The translations under genes were made by a program, and so were the position numbers. The notes beneath the pieces are model-generated. The model had not been told where the DNA came from. It did not search any database and worked only from the letters and a program-made list of their open reading frames with translations. A DNA stretch of 45,942 bases. It comes from Oscillospiraceae bacterium. GTDB lineage: Bacteria; Bacillota; Clostridia; Oscillospirales; CAG-272. Location of the stretch: positions 1 through 45,942 of the forward strand of contig SVQM01000004.1 of NCBI GenBank assembly GCA_015065335.1, written 5' to 3'. Positions 6,892 through 40,365 of the stretch are shown here, piece after piece (the first letter of the stretch is position 1; each line of letters opens with the position of its first letter).

Positions 6892-6925
6892 AAAAAAGTT
6901 CAAGAGGACACATGTCCTCTTGAAC
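6892..6925 (-). terminator. Intrinsic terminator of the flavodoxin-like gene
   Basis: Perfect 13-bp stem (6898-6910 with 6913-6925) followed on the minus strand by six Ts. It closes the single-gene unit 6945-7385 about 20 nt after its stop. Confidence 0.92.
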
Positions 6926-33670: not shown

Positions 33671-33696
33671 GACAGTCTCGGAAACCCGAGACTGTC
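33671..33696 (-). other. Strong hairpin without U-tract between hup and rqcP
   Basis: Perfect 11-bp GC-containing stem GACAGTCTCGG/CCGAGACTGTC, 4-nt loop, in the hup-rqcP intergenic gap. On the minus strand it is followed by CTATTACATTG, not a T-run, so it may be an mRNA processing/stabiliser or partial attenuator. It ends 24 nt before the rqcP start. Confidence 0.6.
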
Positions 33697-36612: not shown

Positions 36613-37905
36613 TCAGCACATTAACTTTTCTCTTGCAGCGGCGTATTCGTGATCTATCCGCGCAATATCTATAGTAGTATATTCACCGTTTTCGAAAAGA
36701 ATACGCCCGTCCACCATAGTCATGACTACATCGCTTCTGTCTGCGGCATAAGCGAGAGTACTAAAAGCATCCTCACATATGGAAACACCGGGGCGGTCAC
36801 ATGAAATTAGTACAAGATCGGCAGGCATACCGACTTTTATTTCTGCATATCCTTCTCTTCCCTGAGCGACAGAACCTCCGGCAGTAGCAGCAGTTATTAC
36901 ATCAGCGGCACGTACTGCAGAGGCGTCACGAAGGATCCCCTTGTGCAGAATTGCGGAAAGCTGCATTTCGGCGATAAGATCCTGCTTGTTGTTTGAAGCA
37001 GAACCGTCGGTACCGAGAGCAATATTCACTCCTGCCTTTGAGAGAGCTTCAAAATCCATCACACCGCTTCCGAGCTTAAGATTGCTTCTGGGATTGTGGA
37101 CAGCGGTCGCACCCTTTGATGCCATGATCTCCATGTCATTCCGATCGAGCCATACACAGTGAGCAGCAGTTACGGGTACATCAAACACTCCGCATTTTTC
37201 AAAAAATGCGGTAGGAGTCATCCCATGGCGTCCTATACACTCATTGTGTTCTTTTTCGGTTTCGGACAAATGTATATGCAAACGTGCACCGTAGTCCTTT
37301 GCAAGCTCTGCAAGATAACGGCACATGGATTCAGTGTTTGTATATTCGGCATGTAGAGAAAAATCAATTTTTACTCTGCCGTTACCGGCATTGTTATAAT
37401 CATTGAAAAGAGAAATAGTTTCTGCAACACGGAAATTGGATGCAGGAGCTTCGGATTCATCAAATGAAACTACAGAACGTGAGATATTCGCCTTTATACC
37501 GGACTCAATGACAGCATCGGCGACACGGTCACAGAAAAAATACATATCAGAAAAAGAAGTTACACCGCCGCGTATCATTTCAGCAATGGCGCTCATGGTT
37601 CCGATATATGCAAGATCGCCGTTAAGCTTGTCCTCTGTGGGGAAAATATGGTCGTTCAGCCACACATCGAGGGGACAGTCACTGCCAAGACCTCGAAGAA
37701 GTGTCATAGGAGTATGACAGTGAGCATTGACAAATCCGGGCATGAGTATACATCCCGCACCGTCGATCGTGCGGTCAAATGATGAACAGCCTTTAGGAAG
37801 AACATCTCCCGCAAAAACAACGGTGTCATTTTCAACGATTACGTTTTTTACTGCACTTTGCCCCGAAAGATCGGGGCAAAGTGCATTTTTTATAAGAATT
37901 TTCAC
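36613..37905 (-). CDS. mtaD: Amidohydrolase, 5-methylthioadenosine/S-adenosylhomocysteine deaminase-like
   Basis: 430 residues. Metal ligands HxH (NAHCHTPMTLLRGLGSD; His62, His64), LHIHLSETEKEH, then HCVWL and GTDGSASNN (Asp ligand), as in MtaD/SsnA-like deaminases. The substrate-binding RGL segment fits the MTA/SAH deaminase family; guanine or other amidohydrolases are less likely. Codons 7-18 coincide with a perfect 15-bp hairpin that is an antisense terminator on the plus strand. Gaps of 15-20 nt to neighbours suggest operon transcription. Confidence 0.87.
   Translation of the reverse strand: MKILIKNALCPDLSGQSAVKNVIVENDTVVFAGDVLPKGCSSFDRTIDGAGCILMPGFVNAHCHTPMTLLRGLGSDCPLDVWLNDHIFPTEDKLNGDLAYIGTMSAIAEMIRGGVTSFSDMYFFCDRVADAVIESGIKANISRSVVSFDESEAPASNFRVAETISLFNDYNNAGNGRVKIDFSLHAEYTNTESMCRYLAELAKDYGARLHIHLSETEKEHNECIGRHGMTPTAFFEKCGVFDVPVTAAHCVWLDRNDMEIMASKGATAVHNPRSNLKLGSGVMDFEALSKAGVNIALGTDGSASNNKQDLIAEMQLSAILHKGILRDASAVRAADVITAATAGGSVAQGREGYAEIKVGMPADLVLISCDRPGVSICEDAFSTLAYAADRSDVVMTMVDGRILFENGEYTTIDIARIDHEYAAAREKLMC
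37852..37891 (+). terminator. Antisense intrinsic terminator-like hairpin inside mtaD
   Basis: Perfect 15-bp stem (37852-37866 with 37871-37885), loop AAGA, followed by six Ts (37886-37891) on the plus strand. It lies inside the mtaD coding region near its 5' end. On the minus strand it is followed by A-tract, so it does not terminate mtaD. Confidence 0.7.
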
Positions 37906-37925
37906 TTTGATTCTCCGTATACAGA

Positions 37926-38837
37926 TCAGTCAATAAATTCGTGCAGAAGTGAATCTGCGGGAACGTCGGATTCGAGGATTGCATAAGGGATGATTCTGGT
38001 AAGCTTCTTTTTGATAAAGCTTACAGTGGGATATTGAGGACTGTATAGATCAACGGTATCGAGGATATCGTATATCTCCGTACACATAACGTAAAGATCA
38101 TACGGTATAACCGAATTTATCTTTATTTCAGCAGCCTTTCCTTGAGGAACGATGCGTTTATCTTCATTGTCACGAACGGCATCCCAAAGTCTGAGGGTGA
38201 ATTCGGGGCCGGATGCTCTGTTATTGTAATCTCTGAGAATGCGTCGGAGAAGTCTGATCTCATCCGCTTCAAAGCGCATACCGTTAGCTGTAACAGATGA
38301 GGCAACAGTAATATAAACACGCTTTGTGGTAGCGGAATCAAGGCTTCTGTAGATCTCGGGATAAAGAGCCTGTATTCCTTCGAAGATGTAAATGTCGTTT
38401 TCCTGAGGGACATATCTTCTCATACCTACTCTTTTTCTTTCTTTGAAGTCATATATAGGAGCTATGGCTTCATTTCCATTGTAAATATCACGGATAAAAT
38501 GATTGAACATTCCGAGATCAAGAGCTTCGGGAGATTCATAATCCGGTATGTATATCTTATCGGATGCAGTATTTTCCTCAAGATAGAAATCGTCAATAGA
38601 AATAGATACCACTCTTCTTCCTGCAGTTTCAAGAAGAGCTCCAAGCTTTCCTGCGGTTGTGGTTTTTCCCGAACAGGAAGGGCCTGCAAGAGCTACAGTG
38701 TTGATGTTCTTATCGGAAAGAATGGCATCGGCTGCCATTTTGACTTCGTTTTCAAAACGGCTCTCCCATTTGATTATTTCCTCTTTAATGTCTGTGTCCT
38801 GTCTGAAATCCAGGATAATGTTATCATAGTTTTCCAT
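37926..38837 (-). CDS. Uridine kinase/phosphoribulokinase-family nucleoside kinase
   Basis: 303 residues. P-loop GPSCSGKTT (52-60), DDFYL (82-86) and FEGIQAL with DxxR-like later segments are of the uridine kinase family; the RLLRRILRDYNNR motif resembles the substrate arm of this group. Nucleoside substrate not certain. I use the ATG at 38837, preceded by AAAGGA about 10 nt away; ATGs at 38870 and 38879 overlap the hemZ end and are alternatives. Follows hemZ. Confidence 0.8.
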   Translation of the reverse strand: MENYDNIILDFRQDTDIKEEIIKWESRFENEVKMAADAILSDKNINTVALAGPSCSGKTTTAGKLGALLETAGRRVVSISIDDFYLEENTASDKIYIPDYESPEALDLGMFNHFIRDIYNGNEAIAPIYDFKERKRVGMRRYVPQENDIYIFEGIQALYPEIYRSLDSATTKRVYITVASSVTANGMRFEADEIRLLRRILRDYNNRASGPEFTLRLWDAVRDNEDKRIVPQGKAAEIKINSVIPYDLYVMCTEIYDILDTVDLYSPQYPTVSFIKKKLTRIIPYAILESDVPADSLLHEFID

Positions 38838-38862
38838 TACTTTACGTTCCTTTCCGGCGACG

Positions 38863-40365
38863 TCAGCCATGATTTTCATAGAACTTCTTTGAATTTGTAC
38901 GAAGGACAAGCCGCCTTTTTTCACCGGTCTCGCCATCGTGATCCTTTAAGTATTCATAGGGATATTTGGGTTCAAAAATTCGCTCGATTATCTGCTCACC
39001 TGAGCGTTTATCATGAAGTGTGAGCCTTGTGACGGCGGAGGCACCGACACCGAAAACGGTGTGAATTTCTTCCATCATATATATATTGTACATACTCTCA
39101 CACCCGGGTAATGAAAATCCTACGTTTTCAAGGTTTCCAACAGTGTTTTTTTGTCTGTACATATAATACGGAATGTAGCCGAAGTCAGATATAATACGGG
39201 AAGCTTCGCTGACAGAACGCTCTGCATCAAGACTTTCTCTTGAATAAAGATCGCTCATGCCGTAATCTGAGGAGCGTTTTACAGTAAATGTATGAACGGT
39301 GATCGCATCAGGTTGAAGCTCAGCTATTTGATTTGCGGATGATATAAAGCTTTCTGCACTTTCTCCCGGCAAACCTGCTATCAGATCGACATTTATACAT
39401 TTTATTCCTGTGTCACGTGAGAGCTCATATGCTGCAAGGAAATCAGCCGCAGTGTGATTCCTGCCTACATTTTTCAGAACATCATCGTTCAGTGTCTGAG
39501 TATTAACACTTATCCTTGTGACATTGTTTCTCTTTATTGCTTCAAGTTTTTCTTTTGTGATGGTATCAGGCCGTCCTGCTTCAAATGTAAACTCTTCGAT
39601 CTCATATCCGACAGATTCTCGAACGAAAGACAGAAGATAATCTATTTGAGATGCATCAAGGATAGTCGGAGTACCGCCGCCGACATACACGGAAGAAACA
39701 TGAAGTCCGAGAGAATTTATGGTCTCTATAGTATTAGTGAGATCACGTTTCAGAGCAATAAGATACTCCGGAATAAGCTTGAGAAGCCCGGGAGATGAAA
39801 CAGAAACGAAGGAACAGTACCGGCATCTTGACGGGCAAAAAGGAATGGCGATATAGATACTGCATTCATTTCGCTGATCTTTTTTGATTACAGCCGATTC
39901 AGTAACCGAAACGGAGGTTGCGAGCCTTGCCTTATCTTCACTTACACGATAAATGTTTATAAGATAATTTGAGGCATCATCCGGTGAGAGTCCCTCATCA
40001 ATGAGAGCAGATACAACTCTTGCGGGGCGTACTCCCGTGAGTATTCCCCACGGAGGAGTATAACCGGTGAATTTTCCTGCTGCATCCATAAATGCAAGTC
40101 CTACGGCGATCTTGTCGGATTTTTCAATATCGGCTGATGTGAGTGAAGAGAAATCCACACTTCCCTTTCCTACATAAGCGCACCCGATCTCGGAATCACC
40201 TAACTGAACAACGGCAAAGCTGTTGTTCTCACATCTTTCCGAATGAACTTTGCACCAACGGGAATTTTCACTCTCCTTGAAGCCTTCACCCGGGAAATAG
40301 AGGAGACACAGTGTCTGTACATAGTAAGCGTTCAGCTTACCGTTTCCTGTGATATAAATATTCAT
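38863..40365 (-). CDS. hemZ: Coproporphyrinogen dehydrogenase HemZ-like radical SAM enzyme
   Basis: 500 residues. An N-terminal ~165-residue domain precedes the radical SAM core with CPSRCRYC (Cys177, 181, 184), then VYVGGGTPT, FEAGRPDT and SVNTQTLND as in HemN/HemZ. The long N-terminal domain is characteristic of HemZ. Heme biosynthesis role is by homology; other heme genes are absent. Start overlaps dtd stop by 1 nt (TAATG). Confidence 0.9.
   Translation of the reverse strand: MNIYITGNGKLNAYYVQTLCLLYFPGEGFKESENSRWCKVHSERCENNSFAVVQLGDSEIGCAYVGKGSVDFSSLTSADIEKSDKIAVGLAFMDAAGKFTGYTPPWGILTGVRPARVVSALIDEGLSPDDASNYLINIYRVSEDKARLATSVSVTESAVIKKDQRNECSIYIAIPFCPSRCRYCSFVSVSSPGLLKLIPEYLIALKRDLTNTIETINSLGLHVSSVYVGGGTPTILDASQIDYLLSFVRESVGYEIEEFTFEAGRPDTITKEKLEAIKRNNVTRISVNTQTLNDDVLKNVGRNHTAADFLAAYELSRDTGIKCINVDLIAGLPGESAESFISSANQIAELQPDAITVHTFTVKRSSDYGMSDLYSRESLDAERSVSEASRIISDFGYIPYYMYRQKNTVGNLENVGFSLPGCESMYNIYMMEEIHTVFGVGASAVTRLTLHDKRSGEQIIERIFEPKYPYEYLKDHDGETGEKRRLVLRTNSKKFYENHG

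Follow-up and report, generated by a model that had tools for sequence, protein, structure and literature searches.

In the stretch of Oscillospiraceae DNA analyzed here (the window, 45,942 nucleotides of a draft genome), a perfect hairpin lies within the first codons of an MtaD-like amidohydrolase gene and has the shape of a terminator facing the antisense strand. On balance, we think that this hairpin is a coding palindrome, specific to the lineage and probably of recent origin, in a variable N-terminal loop of the protein, that it likely arose by template switching, and that no selected function is needed to account for it. Its arms (37852–37866 and 37871–37885, 15 bp each) enclose a 4-nt loop, and the whole inverted repeat (37852–37885) occupies codons 7–18 of mtaD, which is read from the minus strand. 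Nine of the 15 pairs are G–C. Immediately after the stem, on the plus strand, comes a run of six T's (37886–37891), which would form the U-tract of an antisense transcript; on the minus strand, the same bases are a run of six A's inside codons 5–7 (ATA AAA AAT, Ile-Lys-Asn). The original prediction of a perfect 15-bp stem followed by TTTTTT on the plus strand across these codons was exact in coordinates, strand, stem, tail, and codon positions.

With loops of 3–10 nt allowed, this is the longest perfect stem in the window. It is nearly as stable on one strand as on the other (−28.1 kcal/mol on the plus strand, −29.0 kcal/mol on the minus strand), whereas the T-tract score is 4.54 in the antisense direction and only 0.55 in the sense direction. 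The sense tail that follows the stem, GTAAAAAACG, has T at one of eight positions and provides no U-tract, and a sense terminator was rejected for this reason. The antisense direction does show the features of an intrinsic terminator, with a stable, G+C-containing stem-loop and a U-tract that follows at once. A 101-base region of the plus strand that includes the hairpin folds 5.1 SD below its dinucleotide shuffles, none of which (0/200) reached as low an energy. Six other hairpins were scored in the window, and the best tail among them (6898–6925, minus strand) has a T-score of 4.62; the tail in mtaD is thus near the best in the window and is joined to a stronger stem.

The host gene (36613–37905, minus strand) encodes 430 amino acids from a GTG start at 37905. 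A probable Shine-Dalgarno sequence, GGAGA, can be read at 37912–37916 on the same strand, 6 nt ahead of the GTG and outside the hairpin. Both the coding frame and the start at 37905 are supported, because the residues before the hairpin (MKILIKN) and those after it (VIVEND) align with homologues. The product matches Pfam Amidohydro_1, and the MTA/SAH deaminase 4f0r is among its closest solved structures; the NCBIfam models matched all fall below their curated cut-offs among the matches listed (25 of 38). As a name, “mtaD” is therefore acceptable if imprecise, and “MtaD-like” is preferable. Upstream, after a gap of 20 nt and on the same strand, is a uridine-kinase/phosphoribulokinase-like gene (37926–38936, minus strand). 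From 43.1 down to 33.7 kb, the genes run in the order RelA/SpoT-like, tRNA-deacylase-like, hemZ, uridine-kinase-like, mtaD-like, SpoVB/MATE-like transporter, mazG, and HU-like, where the first two are what we take these genes to be from their translations. HemZ and MazG passed NCBIfam cut-offs, and the other four genes searched were below cut-off among the matches listed. All open reading frames taken as genes between 33.7 and 43.1 kb lie on the minus strand, and both plus-strand frames of at least 120 amino acids overlie minus-strand genes. Since every gene in this run points the same way, no plus-strand unit is seen near the hairpin for it to end. Directly past the HU-like gene there is a perfect 11-bp hairpin (33671–33696) with almost no T-tract (T-score 1.19), and the gene run may end there.

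We compared the 5′ end of mtaD among relatives. The collection searched contains no genome of the genus besides that of the window. In 395 genomes of the family, 130 of which had a match, the nearest relative at mtaD is 55% identical, and a scan of species genomes, for which the best 80 of 159 loci (at most 53% identity) were used, may have omitted entries closely similar to the window's genome. The 133 relative loci obtained were reduced to 120 distinct ones by removing shared loci, and after a further 20 without a start call and 18 low-scoring loci were set aside, 82 remained to be aligned with the window. Within nucleotides 1–75, the longest perfect stem among these 82 relatives is 7 bp, compared with 15 bp in the window. 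When the 15 stem pairs were projected onto the codon alignment, 463 of 1086 cells (42.6%) held standard pairs, compared with 36.4–43.1% when the partners were slid by 1–3 nt, and the best relative has 10 of the 15 pairs. Over the 83 sequences (window included), the antisense fold averages −9.6 kcal/mol (SD 4.7), with the window at −28.9 and the next sequence at −19.0 kcal/mol. Neither maintained pairing nor compensatory change of the kind expected for a conserved RNA element was found in the 82 relatives, the nearest of which is 55% identical, and no Rfam family reached its gathering score anywhere in the window. Conservation of the hairpin at this codon position had been proposed as a check, and the hairpin is absent from all 82. 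An element restricted to the genus would be missed by this comparison, because the relatives are at most 55% identical and the loop varies in length.

The same check had also asked whether the hairpin recurs in other genes. With up to three mismatches allowed, it is found at a single place in the draft genome that it comes from, and that genome is the only one of the 395 family genomes to contain it; a dispersed or mobile repeat was rejected on this basis. Half-arms with up to two mismatches are found at 18 places in the genome, including the two arms in the window, compared with 6 for a reversed control. An element inserted into mtaD was likewise rejected, as the distance from the start to the NxHxH motif is 64 residues in the window and 58–70 in relatives. 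A phage origin was also considered and set aside, as a search of the phage collection with positions 37500–38100 found nothing at E 1e-5.

Conserved positions in the N-terminal region fall in residues 1–7 and 22–33, and residues 8–18, which the hairpin encodes, are variable and gapped. Because this stretch is variable and gap-rich and the distance from the start to NxHxH is within the relatives' range, the palindrome appears to have taken the place of existing residues in a loop that is free to vary, as opposed to entering as an inserted block. Two of these residues are unusual: position 10 is Cys in the window and Ile, Leu, or Val in 71 of 82 relatives, and position 11 is Pro in the window and Leu, Ile, or Met in 63 of 82. 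Judged from the alignment, the Cys-Pro pair in place of the usual hydrophobic residues looks as if this segment had been rewritten. The T-run has a different source. Lys at position 6 and Asn at position 7 are the commonest residues there (46/82 and 63/82, respectively), and 36 of the 82 relatives, every one of them with Lys-Asn, have a run of at least five A's within nucleotides 10–27; runs of at least six are present in 2 of 82. Since the codons for consensus Lys-Asn supply the A-run, most of the U-tract needs no separate explanation, but the stem does.

We propose that replication template switching between short imperfect repeats would have rewritten one arm to match the reverse complement of its partner. 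The protein would have tolerated the rewriting, as the variable loop was presumably free to change, and the palindrome may have been neutral since its origin. The terminator shape would then be accidental, with the adjoining Lys-Asn codons placing a run of T's solely on the antisense side. According to the portions of the reports available to us, template switching can create perfect hairpins and rewrite coding DNA with changes of several codons (PMC8794818, PMC8604942), and palindromes within coding sequence are compatible with a functional protein (PMC6649704). The repeat in mtaD is perfect like those described in these three reports, as far as their available portions go; here it is in-frame and tolerated by the protein, and both its residues and its synonymous sites fit the palindrome. 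Differences from these cases, taken to the same extent, are that the reports concern RNA, yeast, and mitochondrial genes, with no template switching named in the mitochondrial one, and that the palindrome in mtaD is present in one sequence only, so that neither the event nor the donor arm can be reconstructed. What the alignment does show is perfect arms in a variable loop, with a nearest relative that, at 55% identity, is too distant to reveal an ancestral arm or an imperfect precursor. Several details count against this account. The shape is a good terminator's, the T6 begins at the first base past the stem, with an A-run of six being as rare among the relatives as noted above, and the U-tract is confined to the antisense side, an asymmetry that selection for antisense termination would require. 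One of the four other coding palindromes of this genome (see below) likewise has five T's of eight on its antisense side.

Such a selected terminator is the alternative that survives best, and we regard it as unlikely. It would stop antisense RNA arising from inside mtaD or beyond at codon 5, before the ribosome-binding site and the upstream kinase gene; left unterminated at the hairpin, antisense RNA would continue into the kinase gene. The 15-bp stem with its folding energy, T6, and near-best tail fits this role, as do the restriction of the U-tract to the antisense side and a stem too long to be expected from synonymous chance (see below). Antisense RNA would also be untranslated, and would therefore carry no ribosome to suppress termination. 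From the scores of the stem and tail, plus-strand transcription, if there is any, should be stopped efficiently at the hairpin. On the other side stand the lack of conservation in the 82 relatives, 36 of which carry a T-run of five along with their Lys-Asn codons, and the lack of a plus-strand unit in the 33.7–43.1 kb region. Promoter-like matches between 36400 and 38100 are not in excess either (one, on the plus strand, compared with 3.4 expected).

The likeness to intrinsic (Rho-independent) terminators, including intragenic ones, extends to the G+C-rich perfect stem, the 4-nt loop, the immediate T6, and the location within the first 100 nt of the coding region, as far as the available text of the comparison source goes (PMC4824070). 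In that text, Li et al. show, for sense transcripts, that terminators located within the initial 100 bp of a coding region can be functional. Set against the terminators covered in the same portion of that source, the hairpin in mtaD differs in that it faces the antisense strand, has no U-tract on the sense strand, and is unconserved in the relatives examined. Antisense RNA can also end without such hairpins, given that in E. coli, according to the part of the report available, 51.5% of Rho termination regions are antisense to genes (PMC7815308).

A strand-asymmetric version of the same idea strikes us as quite unlikely. The hairpin would be a “one-way” terminator in the first codons, past which sense transcription proceeds and at which antisense transcription is cut short ahead of the ribosome-binding site and the neighboring gene upstream; the variable loop would have been recruited for this purpose within the genus. 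Sense transcription of mtaD should indeed pass the hairpin, because the sense strand has no U-tract.

We consider it improbable that the hairpin is an element of the sense mRNA, acting as a brake on early elongation, as protection for a processed 5′ end, or as a means of adjusting mtaD translation within the operon. In the mRNA, the stem spans +21 to +54, forms on this strand too at the energy given above, and is the dominant structure in the folded 5′ region. Opening the segment from −18 to +35 is very costly, at 32.4 kcal/mol compared with 13.5 ± 3.3 for random synonymous versions. However, the segment from −18 to +18 is as open as in random synonymous versions (7.7 compared with 8.9 ± 2.1 kcal/mol for 60 of them), and the hairpin is unconserved in relatives. 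Since opening −18 to +18 costs no more than in synonymous versions, initiation should not suffer from the hairpin, and a block of initiation was dropped as unsupported. The earlier suggestion that the hairpin hinders translation of mtaD as a 5′ structure is not supported by the value for −18 to +18, as the ribosome-binding region is unoccluded.

That the hairpin is purely a product of codon choice and peptide is very improbable. The peptide does permit a palindromic encoding; 768 of its 5,308,416 possible encodings pair perfectly, which amounts to a usage-weighted probability of 1.8e-4 for random synonymous codons. To assess this more broadly, we shuffled synonymous codons in 493,191 nt comprising the window and 40 stretches of its own genome (423 open reading frames of at least 150 amino acids, uncurated longest-frame calls as in all our hairpin surveys). 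Perfect stems of at least 12 bp numbered 12 in the observed sequence, compared with a mean of 0.33 per shuffle, and no stem exceeded 14 bp in any of the 12 shuffles. Because the shuffles gave no stem above 14 bp and few encodings pair perfectly, codon chance given the peptide is insufficient to explain the hairpin. A low synonymous probability is what a template switch would be expected to leave, since one event would write codons and residues together. Of 22 single synonymous changes available in the stem, 17 would destroy a pair, and a perfect stem therefore implies either recency or upkeep. The original prediction held that so strong a hairpin is rare in coding DNA unless selected; the rarity is borne out beyond codon chance, but presence by selection is not supported, with the pairing absent in 82 relatives. 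An assembly or sequencing artefact is hardly credible, as the reading frame is uninterrupted, the length is in line with the family, and protein on both flanks is conserved, even in a draft genome of 155 contigs that is 75.3% complete.

The survey also places the hairpin among other palindromes in the same genome. By our own judgement from translations (from position alone for three stems), 5 of the 12 stems are truly coding: those in mtaD (15 bp), a transposase (18 bp), an AroE-like gene (13 bp), and two further open reading frames (14 and 12 bp). The remaining seven lie ahead of a likelier start, in a doubtful frame, or, for the three that were untranslated, at most 9 nt from the 5′ end of a frame. 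Four stems reach at least 15 bp, and the two of these judged coding are those in mtaD and the transposase. Among the four coding palindromes other than that in mtaD (12–18 bp), five T's of eight follow on the antisense side in one and on the sense side in none, and neither side has them in the other three. As three of four are without a T-tract, palindromes evidently arise in genes of this genome apart from terminators; four cases are too few to conclude whether they form a class of antisense terminators. For example, a perfect 14-bp coding palindrome (L175, 4020–4054) lies 25 codons before the end of its frame with five T's of eight on the antisense side, and is weakly another terminator-shaped antisense hairpin in coding DNA. 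The 13-bp palindrome in the AroE-like gene (named by eye; L192, 8200–8232) spans LLGEKLSHSFSP.

Other palindromes were seen along the way. Directly upstream of an mtaD relative, a single open reading frame holds two perfect palindromes of 14 and 12 bp (L076, 2288–2323 and 2470–2496), the first of which spans the peptide ISIDDFY (translated by hand), resembling a peptide in the window's kinase gene. In the window's own genome, hairpins recur at L157 (730–767), L165 (157–196), L158 (2099–2131), L160 (10016–10051), L192 (10622–10655), L182 (2630–2657), and L193 (749–776). They have a T-run and an A-run beside the loop and outer arms that contain G and C, several are at the 5′ edge of an open reading frame, and together they look like a dispersed family of palindromes.

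The largest coding palindrome in the genome sample lies in the coding sequence of a transposase with rve and HTH_21 domains, which we named by eye as IS3-type (L156, 13147–13186, on contig C5 of the window's genome; also within L194, 2164–2223). It consists of 20 successive pairs around a center of zero length on a codon boundary, directly past an ESFW motif. Relatives at L195, L196, and L198 (64–74% protein identity) have 21 successive pairs in the same codons with compensatory changes, and a relative on a viral contig (L200, 90%) has 20 of the first 21. Pairing is less complete in L199 (59%; 16/21 pairs) and L197 (65%; 9/21). The alignment used seven of eight loci, leaving out L201, a 16-residue match without the palindrome. 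In this alignment of seven, both partners had changed at 8 of 19 pairs, and the covariation score was 0.331 compared with 0.117 in shuffles (0/500 as high) and 0.02–0.07 with the partners slid. Plasmids searched by tblastn with the transposase yielded no hit at E 1e-60, and nothing evidently on topic appeared in the portion of the open literature that our search on palindromes or hairpins in IS3-family transposase coding sequences covered. This palindrome may be kept by selection or by repeated template switching. Because the transposase relatives are closer (59–90%) than those of mtaD, it is not a like-for-like control for the hairpin in mtaD.

On its own, the hairpin in mtaD matters little, being a clear example of coding DNA that takes a textbook terminator shape with no sign of selection behind it, and the covarying palindrome in the transposase is the more interesting of the two. 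Taken across the sample, this genome has an excess of perfect coding palindromes, with five of at least 12 bp judged coding where 0.33 would be expected. This raises a general question that can be tested: whether coding palindromes are upheld by selection or by mutation alone.
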